Shown here piece by piece: positions 2,572 through 13,283 of a stretch of 64,000 bases of DNA. Every line of letters starts with the position of its first letter. Within the stretch, counting starts at the first letter, position 1. The notes beneath the pieces were generated by a model, which did no database searches, was not told the DNA's origin, and worked only from the letters and a program-made list of their open reading frames with translations. The DNA is taken from positions 620,001 through 684,000 of the forward strand of contig NZ_JAEUGD010000042.1 in the NCBI RefSeq assembly GCF_016775155.1, written 5' to 3'. The translations under genes were made by a program, and so were the position numbers. The DNA comes from Fulvivirga marina. Its GTDB lineage: Bacteria > Bacteroidota > Bacteroidia > Cytophagales > Cyclobacteriaceae.

Positions 2572-3234
2572 TTATGCATGGAGACCACATTCGGTCTTAG
2601 TCGTATCTGCCCATCGTCCACTTCTACCGGCACCTTTTTTTGTACAATGGAAACAGCCTATAGAGCTATATCCCTGTCCTGCCAGAGGGTGTATGGGGAG
2701 CTCATGTAAAAGCTGATAGAGAGCCACGTCAGAAGGTGACAGATCAATCAAAGGATGAAACTTTATAAGTTCGCCCTTACGCTGGAAGATATCCATGTCC
2801 TTACGGCTATCATTTTGATGAGCCATTAAACCCGAAATCCAGAACTTGAAAGGCTTTTTGACCTGATCCAGAGGCTCTACTTTATTGATGTAGCAGCACA
2901 GATCAGGATTGTACTTCCAAGTTTTGTTGTCATGAGTAAATTTATTTTTGTTGCTTCTGGCTTTGACATTAACCACATTCAGATTTAGTTGCCGGATCAA
3001 TCTATCCTTAAAATCCAATGTTTCATCAAAATGAAAAGTGGTGTCAATAAAGTGTATGGGGTGTTCCGGTGCTACTCTGCTGATCATATGTAGTAGAACA
3101 ACAGAAGAGGTTCCGAATGAGGAAGTAACCAGTATATCCGACGAGGGATGATTCTGGAAAAGCATTTTTAGTCGCTCTTCCGGAGTTTTCGACGAATACT
3201 CTTCATTAGCTTCTTGTAGATTCATAGTTGTCAT
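2572..3234 (-). CDS. cysH: Phosphoadenylyl-/adenylyl-sulfate reductase
   Basis: This PAPS-reductase-family protein of 220 aa reduces activated sulfate to sulfite. The P-loop-like region TSSFGTSS lies at 37-44. The C-terminal KTECGLH motif (Cys216) is the catalytic cysteine that carries the S-sulfo intermediate. A CC pair (113-114) and a CxxC pair (194, 197) are the four ligands of a [4Fe-4S] cluster; enzymes with this cluster mostly prefer APS to PAPS, so an APS reductase is likely (inference). It is the last gene of the sulfur operon. Its start overlaps the sirC stop by one base, implying translational coupling. No cysD/cysN (ATP sulfurylase) is present in the window, so sulfate activation must be encoded elsewhere. 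Confidence 0.93.
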   Translation of the reverse strand: MTTMNLQEANEEYSSKTPEERLKMLFQNHPSSDILVTSSFGTSSVVLLHMISRVAPEHPIHFIDTTFHFDETLDFKDRLIRQLNLNVVNVKARSNKNKFTHDNKTWKYNPDLCCYINKVEPLDQVKKPFKFWISGLMAHQNDSRKDMDIFQRKGELIKFHPLIDLSPSDVALYQLLHELPIHPLAGQGYSSIGCFHCTKKGAGRSGRWADTTKTECGLHA

Positions 3235-3830
3235 TACTTTGAGACTAATTCTTTGGTCTTATCGTTTAATATTCTCACTTTCTCTGAAAAGGAAACTTTT
3301 AAACTGTTTCTTATTCTATTCAGGTTGTTAACCAATTCATTGGTTTCATCAGGGAGTATATCTTCCAGTACTTCCCTGAAACGTTTGGCAAATGTCGGGG
3401 ACTGTCCATTGGTTGATATTCCAATTTTCAGATTCCCTTTTGTAACAGTTGATCCAAGATAGAAATCGCACAGATCGGGTGTGTCCGCTACGTTGGTCAG
3501 TATACCTTTAGCTCTTGCCATTCCATAAATGACTGCATTAAGGTCTCTGTTATTGGTAGCTAGTATTAGTAGTTGAATGCCACTGTGAAGATCGCTGGGT
3601 AAAAAGGCTCTTTGGTGTAACGAGATCGTATCAATACCATTTACCCGTGCTCTTATGTCCTCACTAATTTCACGCCCAACAAGTACAATGTTTGCCCTGG
3701 GATCATTTTTAAGCAGGGCATTTAATTTTTCCAGGGCCACATTCCCTCCACCAACAATGAGGGTCTTAAGTTGCCTTATCTTTAAAAAAACTGGAAACAG
3801 ATTGTTGTTAGAATTCATCTTTTTTGGCAT
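3234..3830 (-). CDS. Precorrin-2 dehydrogenase/sirohydrochlorin ferrochelatase (Met8/SirC-like)
   Basis: 198 aa with the N-terminal NAD-binding motif VGGGNVALEKLNAL (about 26-39) of the CysG N-domain/Met8 family. It oxidises precorrin-2 to sirohydrochlorin and may insert iron to make siroheme, the prosthetic group of the sulfite reductase in the same operon. The start overlaps the end of cobA by 23 bases and its stop overlaps the cysH start, a tightly coupled arrangement. A short C-terminal helical part (about 150-198) fits the Met8/SirC fold. Whether it has ferrochelatase activity as well as dehydrogenase activity cannot be told from sequence. Confidence 0.88.
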   Translation of the reverse strand: MPKKMNSNNNLFPVFLKIRQLKTLIVGGGNVALEKLNALLKNDPRANIVLVGREISEDIRARVNGIDTISLHQRAFLPSDLHSGIQLLILATNNRDLNAVIYGMARAKGILTNVADTPDLCDFYLGSTVTKGNLKIGISTNGQSPTFAKRFREVLEDILPDETNELVNNLNRIRNSLKVSFSEKVRILNDKTKELVSK

Positions 3831-4560
3831 TTAATGGTTCATGAACATTAAGGTACTCACTGACTGATTCACCTATTACAATCAGTGCAGGAGCCGGGAT
3901 GCCTTGACTTTGCTTCACTATGGAGCTTACAGTGCCAGTAACTACCCGCGCTGTAGGAAGTGAGCCCTGTGATATAATGGCGACCGGTGTGTCGTGCTTT
4001 TCCTGTGACTGATAGATTGAGACAATCTCGGGAAGCTTACCTAATCCCATGAAATAAACCACAGTGGCGGAAGATTGAGCCGCAAGTCGGGCGTCAGTAG
4101 ACAGCTTACCATTTTTGTTTGTGGCTGTTACTACCCAAAAGCTTTCATTTACCCCCCTTGTAGTTAATGGGATGCCATAGTAGCCTGGTAAATTTAGGCT
4201 TGAAATACCAATAACTACGTCAGTATGAATGCCAAAAGCCTTAGCATAGTCAATCTCCTCCTTGCCGCGGGCGAAAATTAGAGGGTCACCACCTTTTAGT
4301 CGAACTACATGCTTGCCCTGAAGGGCATATTCTACTATGAGCTGGTTGATTTCATCCTGAGTCGAACTATGGGTGCCGGCCCTTTTTCCAACATATATTT
4401 TTTCGCAGGTACTTACAGCATATTTTAATAACTGTTTATTTACTAATGCATCGTAAAGCAATACTTCTGCTGATGCTATGGCCTTTACACCTTTTATAGA
4501 GATGAGGTCCGGATCTCCTGGTCCGGCCCCAACTAATGTCAATTGTCCTGTTTTACTCAT
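3808..4560 (-). CDS. cobA: Uroporphyrinogen-III C-methyltransferase
   Basis: 250-aa SUMT enzyme that makes precorrin-2 from uroporphyrinogen III with two SAM molecules, the first committed step to siroheme. The family signatures VGAGPGDPDLIS (about 11-22) and VRLKGGDPLIFARG (about 82-95) are intact. Its ATG overlaps the stop of the upstream sulfite reductase by four bases (ATGA), so the two are probably translationally coupled. Length is typical for a stand-alone SUMT (no CysG fusion; the partner domain is encoded by the next gene). Use of SAM by this enzyme fits the SAM riboswitch at the head of the operon. Confidence 0.93.
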   Translation of the reverse strand: MSKTGQLTLVGAGPGDPDLISIKGVKAIASAEVLLYDALVNKQLLKYAVSTCEKIYVGKRAGTHSSTQDEINQLIVEYALQGKHVVRLKGGDPLIFARGKEEIDYAKAFGIHTDVVIGISSLNLPGYYGIPLTTRGVNESFWVVTATNKNGKLSTDARLAAQSSATVVYFMGLGKLPEIVSIYQSQEKHDTPVAIISQGSLPTARVVTGTVSSIVKQSQGIPAPALIVIGESVSEYLNVHEPLNAKKDEF

Positions 4561-6683
4561 GCCTTGTAGTAGTTAGAAATTACCTCTTTGTCTTTTCCAT
4601 CCTGAGCTTCATCCTTTCTTAGGACAAGAGCCTTTTGGTAGAAGTTCTTTGCTTGTTCATGGTACTCCTTGGCAAACGCAGGCTCAGGAGTGTTTTGGTT
4701 GATCTGAAGAACAGTAGCTTCGAAATCGACCTGAAGGGCCAAGGCGTCAAAATGTTCAGTAAAGTCTTTGATGATACCAATGTGTGTGTTACAATGTACA
4801 TCTCTGCTCAATAGCAACGCTTTGGCAGTAATTACAAAAGTGCTGTAACTATGGTAAATGGAGTCTGAATAATATCCGTTTTCCAGTGCTTCACCTGAGT
4901 AATGAAGCCTTTCTTCGGCATCATTAAATATGGTGCTTACGACATCAAAGCTTACACCGGCACATTCTCCAGTTCCAATTTCAGGCACAAAGGCTTCTGT
5001 TTCACCCCAATCCAGGTAGTCATCCTGGGTTAATGACTGGACGTCAGCAAGAGACTTTAGCAAGTTGTAGAAATACATTTTGCCCTGTCTCAGATAATAG
5101 TAGTTGAAGTATTCACCTTCCTCAGAGTTGGCATCAAAGTCATTCAGTAACCATCTTACAGCTTCAGGTATTTTTTTGGTTGGTAGCTTGATTACTTTGT
5201 CTGCAATAAAGCCACGTCCGTGTTCATCAATGCCGCCCCCTAATACTACCTGAAGTGCCGGAATAATTGATTTTCCATTTTTAATAGAGCTTCCGTGAAA
5301 ACCTATGTTGGCAATCATGTGCTGGCCGCATGAGTTCATACAACCGCTTATTTTAATATGAATATCAGCATCCGCAATCAGAGAGTGGTATTCGTTGCTG
5401 ATCATTTTTTCCAACTCTTCTGCCACACCTGTGCTGTTGGTTACGCCAAGGTTACATGTGTCAGTGCCAGGGCAGGCGGTAACATCAATAATGGTATCAG
5501 CACCAGGTGCTGCAATTCCAAGGTGATTCAGAACGTAATGCAAATATGGCAAGTATTCTTTTCTTGCGTATTTGAGCAGCAGTCCCTGGCCGACAGTTAC
5601 ACGGATGTCGTCAGCAATGTAGCCTTTAGTTAACCTTACAAGCTCGCGTGTTTTTTCAGCATTAATGTTACCTAGTGGCAGACGTACTTTGATAGCATAA
5701 AAGCCTTTTTGTTTTTGCTCAAATACGTTTGTGTCAAGCCATTTCTGGTATTCCTGCTCATTGGTGATTTTTACATCGGGGGTTTCCCGTTTTTCTGGTA
5801 TTTCCACAGCAATAGCTTCTGTTTCAATCGGGTAAGTTTTGAATGCATTAGCTGTTTGCTCCTGTTTAACCAGTTCCATGAACTTTTCTAGTCCGAGACC
5901 TCTTTTTGGATCTATAAGGAATTTTAATCTGGCCTTGTGTCTTTTCTCACGCTCACCATAACGGTCAAAAACCCTTAAGCCAGCCTCCATGAACGGAATG
6001 ATTTTGTCTGCAGGCAGAAATTCGTAAGCTGTTTGAGCTATGAAAGTCTGAGCTCCCAGACCTCCGCCAACTACTACTTTAAAGCCCTTTATGCCATCCT
6101 GGATTTTTGGAATGAAGCCAAAGTCATGGATGTATGTAAAAGCAGAATCTTTTTCACTTGAAGAGAAAGCAATTTTTATTTTCCTTCCCATGTCTTGGCA
6201 TATAGGGTTTCTCAGGAAGAATTCAGAGGCAGCATGTGCATAAACTGCAACGTCAAATGGTTCTTCCGGATCTATTCCAGCCATTGAAGAGGCGGTGATA
6301 GTTCTTACAGTATTACCGCAGGCTTCTTTGGTTGTTACTCCTGTCTCTTCCAGTTTTGCCCACATTTCAGGTGTGTCTTCCAAGTGCACATAGTGCAGCT
6401 GAATATTTTGCCTTGTTGTAGTATGCAGGTTTCCATTAGTGTATTCTTCAGAGAGGTCAGCTATACGTATCAGCTGCTCGCCGGTAAGCTTACCGTAAGG
6501 TAGTTTAAGGCGGAACATCTGCACGCCAAGCTGACGTTGCCCATATACACCGCGAGCCAGTCGGAACGCTTTGAATCGCTCCTCCTGGATCTCTCCTTTT
6601 TTAAACTGTGATATCTTTTGTTGTAGCTCCTGAATGTCTTTTTGAGCTGCTTTGGAGATCTTTTGGTCTAGTACTATGCTCAT
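4557..6683 (-). CDS. Ferredoxin-dependent siroheme sulfite reductase with C-terminal HEPN-like extension
   Basis: 708 aa. Two ferredoxin-like/nitrite-sulfite reductase repeats carry the siroheme-[4Fe-4S] ligands as C-x5-C (404, 410) and C-x3-C (448, 452). It reduces sulfite to sulfide, presumably with electrons from the ferredoxin encoded two genes upstream. Sulfite rather than nitrite is preferred as substrate because of the cysH, siroheme and metZ neighbours; the fold alone does not separate the two. The core ends near residue 550. Residues about 565-708 form an extra helical domain resembling the HEPN-like tail of some Bacteroidota reductases (my assignment, moderate). It is preceded by the Cys-leader attenuator at 6721-6856, so it is probably controlled separately from metZ. 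Confidence 0.9.
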   Translation of the reverse strand: MSIVLDQKISKAAQKDIQELQQKISQFKKGEIQEERFKAFRLARGVYGQRQLGVQMFRLKLPYGKLTGEQLIRIADLSEEYTNGNLHTTTRQNIQLHYVHLEDTPEMWAKLEETGVTTKEACGNTVRTITASSMAGIDPEEPFDVAVYAHAASEFFLRNPICQDMGRKIKIAFSSSEKDSAFTYIHDFGFIPKIQDGIKGFKVVVGGGLGAQTFIAQTAYEFLPADKIIPFMEAGLRVFDRYGEREKRHKARLKFLIDPKRGLGLEKFMELVKQEQTANAFKTYPIETEAIAVEIPEKRETPDVKITNEQEYQKWLDTNVFEQKQKGFYAIKVRLPLGNINAEKTRELVRLTKGYIADDIRVTVGQGLLLKYARKEYLPYLHYVLNHLGIAAPGADTIIDVTACPGTDTCNLGVTNSTGVAEELEKMISNEYHSLIADADIHIKISGCMNSCGQHMIANIGFHGSSIKNGKSIIPALQVVLGGGIDEHGRGFIADKVIKLPTKKIPEAVRWLLNDFDANSEEGEYFNYYYLRQGKMYFYNLLKSLADVQSLTQDDYLDWGETEAFVPEIGTGECAGVSFDVVSTIFNDAEERLHYSGEALENGYYSDSIYHSYSTFVITAKALLLSRDVHCNTHIGIIKDFTEHFDALALQVDFEATVLQINQNTPEPAFAKEYHEQAKNFYQKALVLRKDEAQDGKDKEVISNYYKA

Positions 6684-6720
6684 ATCACTACTTTTTTAAA
6701 TTTTTTAAAATTCTTTTAAT

Positions 6721-6755
6721 AAAAAAAGGCCTCTTCTGAGTATCCGGAAGAGGCC
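6721..6755 (-). terminator. Intrinsic terminator of the Cys-leader attenuator before the sulfite reductase gene
   Basis: On the minus strand GGCCTCTTC (6755-6747), a 10-nt loop (6746-6737) and GAAGAGGCC (6736-6728) form a perfect 9-bp stem, followed by seven U at 6727-6721. It lies 32 nt past the short leader stop and ends 37 nt before the sulfite reductase start. Transcripts from the operon promoter must pass it to reach the sulfite reductase, cobA, sirC and cysH genes. Confidence 0.88.
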
Positions 6756-6785
6756 TTTTGATGCTTTTTATTCCTGACCGGATAC
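6740..6785 (-). promoter_or_regulatory. Candidate antiterminator pairing of the Cys attenuator
   Basis: GTATCCGG (minus strand, 6785-6778) begins two bases after the leader stop codon. It is the exact complement of CCGGATAC (6747-6740), which covers the terminator loop and the last base of its left arm. This 8-bp pairing would compete with the terminator. A ribosome resting on the leader stop codon would cover the first segment and allow termination. A ribosome stalled on the Cys codons about 20 nt earlier would leave it free. The pairing is seen; the mechanism is inferred. Confidence 0.65.
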
Positions 6786-6787
6786 AA

Positions 6788-6856
6788 TTATTCCTTCATG
6801 TGCTTACAACAAGTACAACACATACAGAAAATGACGTTATTTAACACTTGCCTCAT
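6788..6856 (-). CDS. Cys-rich leader peptide (22 aa) overlapping the metZ stop
   Basis: The ATG at 6856 overlaps the metZ TGA (ATGA), so ribosomes finishing metZ can restart here. The peptide has five Cys codons within seven (Cys11, 13, 14, 16, 17; segment CMCCTCCKHMKE), then a TAA. It is followed immediately by the antiterminator half-site and an intrinsic terminator. Composition, size and position match a classical leader peptide of amino-acid attenuation, here sensing charged tRNA-Cys ahead of the sulfite reductase genes. A small metal-binding or thiol peptide is the alternative reading. Too short for standard gene calling. Confidence 0.75.
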   Translation of the reverse strand: MRQVLNNVIFCMCCTCCKHMKE

Positions 6857-8037
6857 TTTGATGCTCTCAATGCGTTTTCTATGTCTTCCAGTATATCATT
6901 TACATTTTCCAGGCCTACTGATATCCTTACCAGTCCTGGAAGTATGCCTACCTCAGCCCTCTCCTCATCAGTAAGTTTTGAGTGAGTAGTTGAAGCAGGG
7001 TGTGTGGCAATAGTTCTGGAATCTCCCAGGTTAGCTGTAAGAGACATCATTTTGAGGCTATTCAAAAACTTACGGCCACGATCGAATCCTCCAGTGACTA
7101 CAAATGAAACTAGTCCACCACCCAGTTTCATTTGCTTTTTAGCTAACTGACTTTGTGGGTGAGATCCTAAAAACGGATATTTTACCAGCTCAAGCTCGTC
7201 GTGCCCTTCCAGATATTCGGCTATTCTTATAGCACTGTCGCAGTGACGATCCATTCGTACAGCCAGGGTTTCGAGGCTTTTACTTAGCAACCATCCGTTA
7301 AAAGGTGACAGTGAAGGTCCTGTATGTCTGGTGAAAAACCTGATTTCATCGATCAGTTCTTTTGTGCCCAATATTGCCCCGGCAATGGTTCTGCCTTGCC
7401 CGTCTATAAACTTGGTGGCAGAGTGTGTTACCAGGTGTGCCCCATATTTGGCAGGTTGTTGCAAATACGGAGTAGCAAAACAGTTATCAACGTTTAAGAT
7501 CAGGTTATGCCTTTTGGCTAGTAGTCCAAGCCATTCCAGATCAATAATATCTAAGCCAGGGTTTGAAGGTGTTTCAACAAAGATCATTTTGGTGTTGGGT
7601 TTGATCTTGTCTTCCCACTCATCCTGATTGTTGATATCTGCGTAAGTATGCTCAATTCCCCATTTAGGGAATACCTGCGTGAAAAGCTGATGTGTAGAAC
7701 CGAAAACAGATCTTGAAGCCAATATGTGATCGCCGTTCTTCAAAAGAGCTGCCATGCTGCTAAACATTGCAGCCATTCCTGAGGCAGTGGCTATACCATC
7801 TTCTGTGCCCTCCATAGCGCAAAGCTTGTTGATAAACTCTGTGTTGTTAGGGTTAGAAAACCTTGTATATATATTGCCATCCAGTTCATCTGCAAATAAT
7901 GCACGGGCTTGTTCCGCATCTTCAAAAGTAAAACTTGACGTCATGTAAACAGGTACGGAGTGCTCATTATACCCTGAGCGCTCACTCTGGTTACGTATGG
8001 CTTTGGTTTCAAAATGTTTGTATTCGGGCATGTTCAA
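6853..8037 (-). CDS. metZ: O-succinylhomoserine sulfhydrylase (Cys/Met metabolism PLP enzyme)
   Basis: 394 aa of the Cys/Met-metabolism PLP family. It has the N-terminal YTRFSNPN phosphate-binding motif, the aspartate in LNVDNCFATP, and the PLP lysine in THSATKFIDGQG. The most likely reaction is direct sulfhydrylation of an activated homoserine with sulfide to homocysteine (MetZ). Cystathionine gamma-synthase and other close relatives cannot be excluded by motif reading. It would consume the sulfide made by the sulfite reductase. It lies 15 bp after the ferredoxin gene, and its stop codon overlaps the ATG of the 22-aa Cys leader. Being behind the SAM riboswitch but in front of the Cys attenuator, it can be expressed without the sulfite reductase genes. 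Confidence 0.88.
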   Translation of the reverse strand: MNMPEYKHFETKAIRNQSERSGYNEHSVPVYMTSSFTFEDAEQARALFADELDGNIYTRFSNPNNTEFINKLCAMEGTEDGIATASGMAAMFSSMAALLKNGDHILASRSVFGSTHQLFTQVFPKWGIEHTYADINNQDEWEDKIKPNTKMIFVETPSNPGLDIIDLEWLGLLAKRHNLILNVDNCFATPYLQQPAKYGAHLVTHSATKFIDGQGRTIAGAILGTKELIDEIRFFTRHTGPSLSPFNGWLLSKSLETLAVRMDRHCDSAIRIAEYLEGHDELELVKYPFLGSHPQSQLAKKQMKLGGGLVSFVVTGGFDRGRKFLNSLKMMSLTANLGDSRTIATHPASTTHSKLTDEERAEVGILPGLVRISVGLENVNDILEDIENALRASK

Positions 8038-8052: not shown

Positions 8053-8400
8053 TTATGAGGCATGTAGCCACTGTTGTTTTTCTGATAACTCATCGTTTGT
8101 CTCTTCATAATCGGGGTCAGGTACGCAACAATCTACCGGACAAACGGCTGCGCATTGAGGCTCTTCATGAAAGCCTACGCATTCGGTACATTTACCTGAA
8201 ACGATATAGAAAAAACTGTCTGAGACAGGCTCCTGTTGTTCATCTCCGGGGGTGACTGAGCCGTCTTCGAGCTCTACCTCCGAAAGTTCAGTGCCGTCAC
8301 TCCACGACCACTCTTCGCCACCTTCGTAGATGGCGGTATTGGGGCATTCTGGCTCGCAGGCCCCGCAGTTAATGCATTCTTCAGTTATTAATAGTGCCAT
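8053..8400 (-). CDS. 4Fe-4S dicluster ferredoxin
   Basis: 115-aa ferredoxin with a first cluster motif CxxCxxCxxxC (Cys9, 12, 15, 19) and a second cysteine set in [13 protein letters not shown] (71, 74, 83) plus Cys87, 91 and 92. An acidic insert of about 45 residues (30-65) separates them. As first structural gene of the sulfur operon it is the obvious electron donor for the ferredoxin-type sulfite reductase, and possibly for the APS reductase cluster (inference from context). No strong Shine-Dalgarno sequence is visible, as usual in this phylum. The 138-nt untranslated stretch before it holds competing hairpins (8453-8550). Confidence 0.9.
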
Positions 8401-8452: not shown

Positions 8453-8550
8453 GGGGAAATGACATATGTTTATCCCCGTGCGTTGAAGGATGTTAACGCA
8501 CCTGTTGATCAAGGGCCAAAGTGTTATGTTGCTTTAGCCTAACAGGTACA
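8453..8550 (-). promoter_or_regulatory. Competing hairpins between the poly-Cys leader and the ferredoxin gene
   Basis: Segment A (minus 8550-8541, the last Cys-Thr-Cys codons) pairs with segment B (8506-8497, AACAGGTGCG) over 10 bp including two G-U pairs. B also overlaps one arm of a perfect 7-bp hairpin GTGCGTT/AACGCAC (8501-8478), so the two folds exclude each other. A further hairpin GGGGA/TCCCC spans 8477-8453. No U-run follows. The stretch 8460-8401 is C-rich and nearly G-free on the minus strand, as in Rho-loading sites. The layout suggests leader-translation-dependent control by Rho or by start-site masking, but the mode is inferred. Confidence 0.5.
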
Positions 8551-8664
8551 ACAACAACAGCAACAACATATATTTATGTTGCCGTGCTTTGAAAAAGAAA
8601 TATGTGATACCTGACCCTGCCGGTGTTTCTGTAACTCTAAGTAAGATAGATTTGAATTGTTCAT
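8539..8664 (-). CDS. Poly-cysteine leader peptide (41 aa)
   Basis: The minus-strand ATG at 8664 opens a 41-codon frame whose residues 33-39 are seven consecutive Cys, followed by Thr40, Cys41 and TAG. The Cys codons are TGT except one TGC. It starts eight bases after the 3' strand of SAM-riboswitch helix P1 and ends 138 nt before the ferredoxin ATG. A Cys run at the end of a short ORF heading a sulfur-assimilation operon is the hallmark of a Cys-responsive attenuator, as described for mycobacterial poly-Cys uORFs. The N-terminal 32 codons look unremarkable. That this is merely a TGT triplet repeat without translation remains possible. Confidence 0.75.
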   Translation of the reverse strand: MNNSNLSYLELQKHRQGQVSHISFSKHGNINICCCCCCCTC

Positions 8665-8671
8665 TTTTTAG

Positions 8672-8801
8672 CCAATTTATATTCTCCCATTTCGCCACCT
8701 GACGAACATTCAGGATCAGGATTTGGCACCTGTATCACTTTTGATTGATGGTTGCCAGAGGGTCTTAGAGCCTGTCTCTCACCTCATTCTTTATAAATCA
8801 A
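8672..8801 (-). promoter_or_regulatory. SAM-I (S-box) riboswitch
   Basis: On the minus strand, helix P1 is TTGATTTATA (8801-8792) with TATAAATTGG (8681-8672), including two G-U pairs. Between them lie the conserved S-box blocks GAGGTGAGAGAC, CTCTGGCAACC (GGCAACC at 8756-8750) and GGTGCCAAATCC (8730-8719), in the right order and spacing for the P2/P3/SAM pocket. It heads the ferredoxin-metZ-sulfite reductase operon, a typical S-box target. No intrinsic terminator follows P1. The expression platform may instead act on initiation of the poly-Cys leader, whose ATG lies eight bases downstream (inference). Confidence 0.87.
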
Positions 8802-8828: not shown

Positions 8829-8861
8829 CAAATATAAAATTGTAAAAGTTAGAACTGCAAA
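8829..8861 (-). promoter_or_regulatory. Bacteroidota-type promoter of the sulfur operon
   Basis: TTTG (8861-8858), a 21-nt spacer and TATATTTG (8836-8829) match the Bacteroidetes sigma-ABfr consensus TTTG-N19-21-TAnnTTTG exactly. The start of transcription would fall about 20 nt before riboswitch helix P1. Confidence 0.75.
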
Positions 8862-12830: not shown

Positions 12831-13065
12831 CTGCTCCTGAGTCGTTTTATTGGTGAATATAAGCTTTTATTGTCGTTTAGAGAAAGTGGAGAATCTTGTA
12901 TTCTTATAATCTTAAGCGGGGATATAGTCTCTTTTTGGGATTCAATTCCCAAAAGAAGTTCACCTTATTATTAAAGGTAAATTGTAAGTGTCTGATTTTC
13001 AGTTGAAAAATAATATTGTGTCAATTGGTACACATGTTGAATATATTAAAGCATAAAATGGTGAG

Positions 13066-13186
13066 ATGAAAAGAGAATGGGAAGCCAGAAAGCTCATTCT
13101 CTTCAAAATATAAATGTTGGCGCATTAATACCTAAATAGTTGGTTTTTTTAGGCTGGTCCGGCTGCTAAGCAGTCGGGCCTTTTTT
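13066..13186 (+). ncRNA. Possible small RNA or leader: hairpin plus orphan terminator
   Basis: The intergenic region 12831-13283 holds no clear gene. On the plus strand AAGAGAATG (13071-13079) and CATTCTCTT (13095-13103) form a 9-bp hairpin. It is followed by a strong intrinsic terminator: GGTCCGGCTGC (13156-13166), loop TAA, GCAGTCGGGCC (13170-13180), six T. No plus-strand gene lies upstream of this terminator, so a short transcript probably ends here. A 15-codon ORF (13066-13113) is present but unremarkable. The start of the transcript is not located. It could be an sRNA or an attenuated leader of the sigma-factor gene 98 bp downstream. Confidence 0.4.
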
Positions 13187-13283
13187 ATTTTGTGCTCAAA
13201 AGTTTTTTAACTTCCCTGTAACCTTTTAAATCAGGTTCAGTATCCAACCCTGAAAATTCAAAAAAGGTAAAACTCAGGATCAG

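Follow-up and report, generated by a model that had tools for sequence, protein, structure and literature searches.

The gap between a metZ-like gene and the sulfite reductase gene of Fulvivirga marina carries an element which is very likely a trp-type, ribosome-mediated transcription attenuator responding to cysteine. It lies in a 64,000-nucleotide stretch of DNA (hereafter the window), whose minus strand presents, from 5' to 3', a SAM-I riboswitch, a first Cys-rich leader (leader A), fdx, the metZ-like gene, a second leader (leader B), a terminator, the sulfite reductase gene (SiR), cobA, cysG-N and cysH (Table 1). This element, attenuator B, probably gates the SiR, siroheme and cysH genes apart from fdx and metZ. 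The genes behind it provide, from sulfate-derived sulfur, the sulfide required for cysteine. Leader, Cys codons, predicted terminator and complementary pairing, together with their recurrence and co-variation, are found in the sequence and in its comparison with relatives.

The SiR protein remained below every NCBIfam equivalog cut-off, and it was named sulfite rather than nitrite reductase because of its neighbours cobA, cysG-N and cysH. Its counterparts in F. kasyanovii and F. imtechensis are 91% and 79% identical to the window protein, and F. kasyanovii also carries attenuator B. A match to a HEPN domain was also observed at its C-terminus (residues 586-646, 25.7 bits for a Pfam cut-off of 22), which is unusual for a sulfite reductase.

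Table 1. Features of the operon and of the probable attenuator B, in window coordinates, listed in the direction of transcription.
Feature	Position	Strand	Remarks
Promoter-like site TTTG-N21-TATATTTG	8829..8861	-	5' of riboswitch; weak, 1 site vs 2.45 in region shuffles
SAM-I riboswitch aptamer	8674..8799	-	operon head; RF00162, 60.6 bits (gathering 44.4)
Leader ORF A, 41 aa, ending ICCCCCCCTC* (CCCCCCCTC*)	8539..8664	-	starts 9 nt past aptamer
YfhL-like 4Fe-4S ferredoxin (fdx)	8053..8400	-	NCBIfam, over cut-off
O-succinyl/O-acetylhomoserine sulfhydrylase-like gene (metZ)	6853..8037	-	directly 5' of attenuator; best NCBIfam 504 bits, cut-off 522
ATGA, leader B start overlapping metZ TGA	6853..6856	-	
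Leader ORF B, 22 aa, MRQVLNNVIFCMCCTCCKHMKE*	6788..6856	-	five Cys codons
Segment 2 (antiterminator 5' strand), DNA GTATCCGG, RNA GUAUCCGG	6778..6785	-	
Segment 2 extension AGG	6773..6775	-	predicted pairing with CCU 6753-6751 of terminator 5' arm
Terminator 5' arm AAAAGGCCUCUUC	6747..6759	-	
Segment 3 part, DNA CCGGATAC, RNA CCGGAUAC	6740..6747	-	loop and last stem base; pairs with 6785-6778
Terminator 3' arm (segment 4) GAAGAGGCCUUUU	6724..6736	-	
U7 tract of predicted intrinsic terminator	6721..6727	-	
Sulfite reductase (SiR; NIR_SIR)	4557..6683	-	first gene 3' of attenuator
Uroporphyrinogen-III C-methyltransferase (cobA/cysG C-terminal half)	3808..4560	-	NCBIfam, over cut-off
Siroheme synthase N-terminal domain protein (cysG-N)	3234..3830	-	NCBIfam, over cut-off
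PAPS/APS reductase (cysH)	2572..3234	-	NCBIfam, over cut-off

Leader and predicted terminator and antiterminator in the window

An earlier note on this DNA had described a 22-residue ORF with five Cys codons whose start overlaps the metZ stop as ATGA, and this ORF was recovered. The Cys codons (6826-6824, 6820-6818, 6817-6815, 6811-6809 and 6808-6806, at positions 11, 13, 14, 16 and 17 of the leader) form a cluster ending five codons short of the UAA stop. The hairpin at 6759-6721 has a 9-bp core (GGCCTCTTC/GAAGAGGCC) extended by AAAA/UUUU and followed by seven T; the perfect 9-bp terminator with seven U announced in the earlier note is present, and its stem in fact reaches 13 bp. The fold of region 6715-6860 has a z-score of -3.24. 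When 6721-6856 was compared with the curated Rfam models, nothing scored above gathering, SscA (E 1.2) and BTnc231 (E 1.8) being far below. Elsewhere in the window, the model of the ribosomal protein L20 leader was matched below threshold (13065-13192, plus strand, 22.9 bits for a gathering score of 58.7), probably by chance.

Segment 2 is exactly complementary over 8 nt to 6740-6747, as had been claimed, but this partner does not lie wholly in the terminator loop, since C6747 still belongs to the stem, as its last base, which leaves seven of the eight bases in the loop. Taken by itself, the 8-nt complement has a p value of 0.011 among 5,000 shuffled spacers. Together with AGG:CCU, the antiterminator amounts to 11 pairs and invades the terminator 5' arm. 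The RNA from the stop codon to the loop, without the 3' arm, is predicted to fold as the antiterminator (-13.8 kcal/mol). The full RNA favours the terminator (-23.7 vs -14.7 with the antiterminator forced), and deletion of the 12 nt directly 3' of the stop codon, which include most of segment 2, also yields the terminator (-20.7). The completed terminator is the more stable of the two structures, so that antitermination must be kinetic. The switch of classical attenuators is likewise kinetic.

We infer the following mechanism, which includes translation of the leader, reinitiation after metZ, ribosome stalling, a kinetic mode of antitermination and the direction in which the switch responds. 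A ribosome finishing metZ would probably restart at the overlapping AUG and translate leader B. With ample Cys-tRNA, it would reach the UAA and mask segment 2 (6785-6773) under its footprint, upon which the terminator would form and transcription would end after metZ. With scarce Cys-tRNA, the ribosome would stall on the Cys codons and leave segment 2 free to engage the loop of the terminator and a portion of its 5' arm while the 3' arm is still to be transcribed, which would lead to readthrough into SiR. The spacing, which had been judged to fit such a scheme, agrees with the coordinates; the fit itself is deduced from the size of the ribosome and is not an observation.

The element had also been called complete, which is too strong. 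A 1:2 protector helix was absent from the window (z +0.5), and over the 70 related loci described below its signal was weak, with a mean z of -0.32 and 10 of the 70 below -1.65; permutation gave 0/5000, under a control that does not hold base composition. Clustered Cys codons, a terminator before SiR, an antiterminator exclusive with it and the position of the stop codon agree in silico with an attenuator.

Recurrence upstream of sulfite reductase

Of 196 family genomes, 143 had an SiR match, and 30 loci were taken from them; further homologues came from GTDB species contigs (the best 80 of 131). Once duplicates with the same upstream sequence and loci whose upstream DNA was too short had been dropped, 89 distinct loci were left. 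An automatic rule called an ORF with at least 3 Cys in 8 residues, then a terminator, in front of SiR, with a terminator score cut-off of 19 that was set after inspection of 40 of the 89 loci. A Cys-rich leader and a terminator were called immediately 5' of SiR in 70 of the 89 loci, which share ancestry, so that the counts are not independent. Both elements were found in about 0.06% of 1,780 shuffles and in 0 of 452 upstream regions of other ORFs from the same loci (at least 150 aa), where a terminator alone was present 19 times. Among the 19 uncalled loci, six (L083, L092, L097, L104, L109 and L111) have a Cys-rich ORF with a terminator under the cut-off, L088, L089 and L105 display leader and terminator by other criteria, L077 is partly N-masked, and L004, L034, L058 and L062 have little space between metZ and SiR.

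Two Cys leaders in series were found at 22 of the 89 loci, both with a terminator in 17; eight of these 17 loci are labelled Saprospiraceae. The first of two terminators scores only 17 or 18 in L089 and L106. Tandem terminated Cys leaders 5' of sulfite reductase were noticed in L060, L063, L071, L072, L074, L079, L081 and L085, and further ones in L086, L094, L100, L101, L102, L103 and L107.

The next upstream gene is metZ in 30 of the 70 called loci, where the element is operon-internal, and in five more loci that were uncalled; for the other 40, the DNA examined up to 700 nt upstream gave no metZ. These counts bear on a rival reading, in which the hairpin is a plain terminator closing the fdx-metZ transcript, SiR is expressed from a promoter of its own and the Cys-rich ORF is there by coincidence. 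A strong terminator straight after a gene is indeed ordinary. However, leader and terminator also precede SiR in the 40 loci without a nearby metZ, and they do so at a rate above that of the shuffles and of the other upstream regions. In the window, an AT-rich spacer of just 37 nt separates the U-run from the SiR start, and a minus-strand search from 8828 to 2500, metZ-SiR gap included, gave no TTTG-N17-23-TAnnTTTG site at one mismatch or fewer, in a strict and insensitive test. A scan for sigma-70 promoters stayed at chance level (16 sites vs 16.5 expected). We consider a plain terminator very unlikely and retain attenuation.

The leaders of the 70 loci contain 3 to 11 Cys (median 7), in runs of up to 11. 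Such a peptide might sense something other than Cys-tRNA, the Cys-rich nascent chain binding a metal or reacting with sulfide and stalling the ribosome, with terminator and antiterminator unchanged. Clustered Cys could bind metal, and copper sensing by a nascent exported protein has been reported, according to the accessible part of PMC9973294. Nevertheless, the number of Cys, their spacing and the length of the runs vary freely over the 70 loci and no conserved motif was seen, which suits the counting of codons better than a binding site; moreover, the downstream genes serve cysteine supply. It is therefore highly improbable that the peptide is the sensor, and reading of Cys codons by the ribosome is the interpretation kept here.

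The survey was extended to 80 further upstream regions with a cut-off of 18, 40 chosen from a phylum sample (392 genomes, SiR match with E <= 1e-60 in 64) and 40 from the family sample, several of the latter being genomes already among the 89. Leader and terminator were present in 27 of the 80, including 19 of 40 in the family of the window. The other families with the element were f8 (2/4), f4 (2/9) and f26, f27, f42 and f45 (1/1 each), and it was not found in f7 (0/15), f5 (0/2), f3 (0/3), f17 (0/2) and f56 (0/1) of this set. On sequence grounds, the putative attenuator is widespread but patchy, and far from universal across the phylum.

A scan of the genome of F. marina itself for four consecutive Cys codons gave 51 matches vs 11 for a backwards-pattern control. 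It retrieved leader A, a leader resembling it at C23:89367, and further runs mostly without a short ORF, and is blind to leaders such as B, which has no such run. Two weaker hits were also recorded, L117, where an ORF starting at TTG contains CCCC and a terminator follows 54 nt on, and L112, MCCCCYWSL with a weak hairpin.

Conservation of the pairing and placement of the probable attenuator B

In the called loci, the RNA between the final Cys codon of the cluster and the terminator was paired with the terminator 5' arm plus loop. The mean z was -2.31 vs dinucleotide shuffles, with p <= 0.05 in 48 of the 70 loci; this level was not reached in 22. A first search, restricted to the stop region and beyond, had given p <= 0.05 in 15 of 70, and the search was widened, after this narrow result was known, to everything past the Cys cluster, which a passing ribosome hides. 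Native partners summed to an energy of -1005.6 vs -672.6 ± 22.4 when swapped, with 0 of 20,000 permutations as good; the swap control holds neither composition nor relatedness, whereas the shuffles hold composition.

In all 70 loci, the best pairing uses at least 3 bases of the terminator 5' arm. The antiterminator that the earlier note had placed on the loop is thus upheld as a pairing but not as one limited to the loop, AGG:CCU reaching the arm in the window as well. Similarly, a post-stop location of segment 2 holds in the window but not in relatives, where the segment usually spans the end of the leader ORF, its 5' end lying at a median of 21 nt ahead of the stop-codon end. In 65 of 70 loci it overlaps the footprint assumed for a ribosome at the stop (-18 to +10 relative to the stop-codon end). 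The last Cys codon of the cluster and segment 2 are separated by a median of 11 nt, and a ribosome stalled at that codon may cover part of segment 2 in many loci.

Closer to the window, the Fulvivirga group gave 14 SiR matches in the genus listing, and the 11 with a readable gene start were examined. Seven have a Cys leader and a terminator (L002 and L272-L277), and all seven keep the pairing; four are near-identical and three have altered letters, e.g. GUAUCCGG:CCGGAUAC vs UGUCCGC:GCGGAUA. The latter (L275-L277) retain the pairing despite the sequence change, including G-C to C-G at pair 6778:6747, as read by eye. Covariation in relatives had been proposed as a check: native pairing beats swaps and shuffles and persists with altered sequence in these three loci. 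Leader, antiterminator and terminator co-occur and co-vary in relatives, and this comparison favours the trp-style reading.

Attenuator B is absent from the other four loci (L003, L004, L281 and L282), where metZ and SiR are separated by a short gap devoid of a leader. Three of these four genomes still have leader A behind the SAM riboswitch (L261, L262 and L264), suggesting that loss of B is tolerated. As a separate observation, SiR at G186:C1:2857647-2859774 in this group was matched in two parts that overlap and, judging from their coordinates, lie in different frames.

The internal position of attenuator B may be understood from other loci. In L048, L051, L053, L025 and L031, a SAM-I riboswitch, leader A, leader B with its terminator and SiR follow one another with no fdx or metZ match between, and L057 has the riboswitch and leader B with a weaker Cys ORF in between. 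Since the modules adjoin in those five loci, the layout of the window looks like the same two modules split by fdx-metZ, through insertion here or loss elsewhere.

Among the 30 loci with metZ upstream, the ATGA overlap is found in the window, L032 and L033. The leader starts 0 to 64 nt 3' of the metZ stop in 24 of the 30 and at 183 nt in L044; its automatic start falls inside metZ in L011 and L052, which may be a wrong call. ATGA is present too in L272 of the Fulvivirga group. As the overlap occurs in few loci with metZ upstream, coupling of metZ to leader B may be a local refinement.

Known attenuators and the SAM-I riboswitch with leader A

In trp-type attenuators (E. coli trp and relatives), the leader contains codons for the amino acid of the pathway, a 2:3 antiterminator competes with a 3:4 terminator and the stop codon lies beside segment 2. 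The candidate described here shares these three traits. It differs in having Cys for Trp, an operon-internal position with ATGA, no supported 1:2 protector and an antiterminator lying partly on the terminator loop. Trp-type leader-peptide attenuators are also covered in the accessible part of PMC1262725.

Cysteine attenuators have been predicted before, and the kind is therefore known. According to the accessible part of PMC8632094, the uORFC-8-2 motif upstream of cysS in Rhodobacterales (alphaproteobacteria) is a predicted Cys-codon attenuator with an intrinsic terminator, whose two Cys codons stand in tandem, most often at positions 14 and 15, and whose target is cysteinyl-tRNA synthetase. 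Leader B is likewise a predicted Cys-codon attenuator with an intrinsic terminator but precedes SiR, has five Cys at positions 11, 13, 14, 16 and 17, and falls outside this motif. In Actinobacterial cys operons, short poly-Cys ORFs precede cysteine genes, with the run near the stop and no obvious terminators (PMC1262725, accessible part); mycobacterial Cys leaders are called leaderless (Canestrari et al. 2020, as mentioned in the accessible parts of PMC9094748 and PMC13236596). Leader B, which has a terminator and a cluster five codons from its stop, lies outside this class, whereas leader A resembles it more and would belong by its description. An operon-internal leader-peptide attenuator between two genes of an amino-acid operon, as here, has been predicted between trpR and trpEb in Chlamydia; there the amino acid is Trp, the upstream gene encodes a repressor and, in the accessible part of PMC3937554, a stop/start overlap is not described. 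Finally, leader-peptide attenuation upstream of unnamed amino-acid operons has been predicted in Flavobacterium psychrophilum, within the accessible parts of the set PMC9723704, PMC7366714, PMC8632094, PMC1262725, PMC9094748, PMC13236596 and PMC3937554.

Searched by title and start of abstract, with supplements and most subscription papers outside the search, the literature yielded no Cys attenuator before a sulfite reductase in Bacteroidota. New with respect to the literature searched are the bacterial group, the SiR target and the ATGA-coupled, operon-internal arrangement with a SAM-I riboswitch and then a poly-Cys leader ahead of it. The element points to control of cysteine supply at the RNA level in a group of Bacteroidota for which no such description was recognised among the titles and abstract starts searched, by a classical kind of attenuator located within an operon and perhaps supplied with ribosomes by the upstream gene. 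It opens tests of coupled reinitiation as a driver of attenuation and of the joining of SAM and cysteine signals in one transcript, and its single, double, SAM-linked and lost variants form a natural series for the evolution of attenuators.

The SAM-I (S-box) riboswitch RF00162 heads the same operon but is distinct from the attenuator, which lies about 1.8 kb further downstream. No terminator was found behind leader A in the window. In all 12 loci tested (11 upstream of fdx-metZ, and L097), an ORF begins 8 to 12 nt past the SAM-I aptamer with Cys clustered at or near its stop, and, apart from a single weak score of 17, no terminator was called behind these 12. A SAM-I riboswitch is present at 8 of the 15 loci of a second set and lies upstream of SiR in 7 of these 8. 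Around Fulvivirga, a leader A-like ORF was found in 13 of the 30 SAM-I loci examined among 42 matches listed; of the other 17, ten have a U-tract hairpin behind the aptamer, as judged by eye. This arrangement suggests a riboswitch gating a Cys-reading leader A.

Leader A, devoid of an obvious terminator in the same operon, and the Actinobacterial Cys leaders, equally devoid of one in the accessible part of PMC1262725, would also suit a scheme in which leader B works via Rho or translational coupling and the hairpin mainly shields the 3' end of the metZ mRNA. This fits poorly with a U-tract hairpin kept at fairly constant spacing in 70 loci, starting at a median of 28 nt past the leader stop (quartiles 24 and 31), and with a competing pairing that varies along with the hairpin. 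We give this scheme almost no credence for leader B, for which terminator-based attenuation is favoured.

A combined model may tentatively be drawn, although we think it somewhat likelier to fail than to hold. The operon would be a three-input sulfur controller: SAM-I would decide on translation of leader A, leader A would read Cys-tRNA in a terminator-free manner (perhaps through Rho), and metZ would hand its ribosome to leader B, with fdx-metZ lying between modules that elsewhere adjoin. If so, translation of metZ would itself be a condition for regulated expression of sulfite reductase.

A second SAM-I riboswitch with a poly-Cys leader, MKRSIQHQTGLLAIF...CCCCCCCY, was noticed in the same genome (L125, G000:C23:89367-89387, minus strand). 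By eye, it precedes an apparent PLP enzyme gene of Cys/Met metabolism. The start of this leader, MKRSIQHQTGLLA, is near-identical in six other SAM-I loci of relatives.
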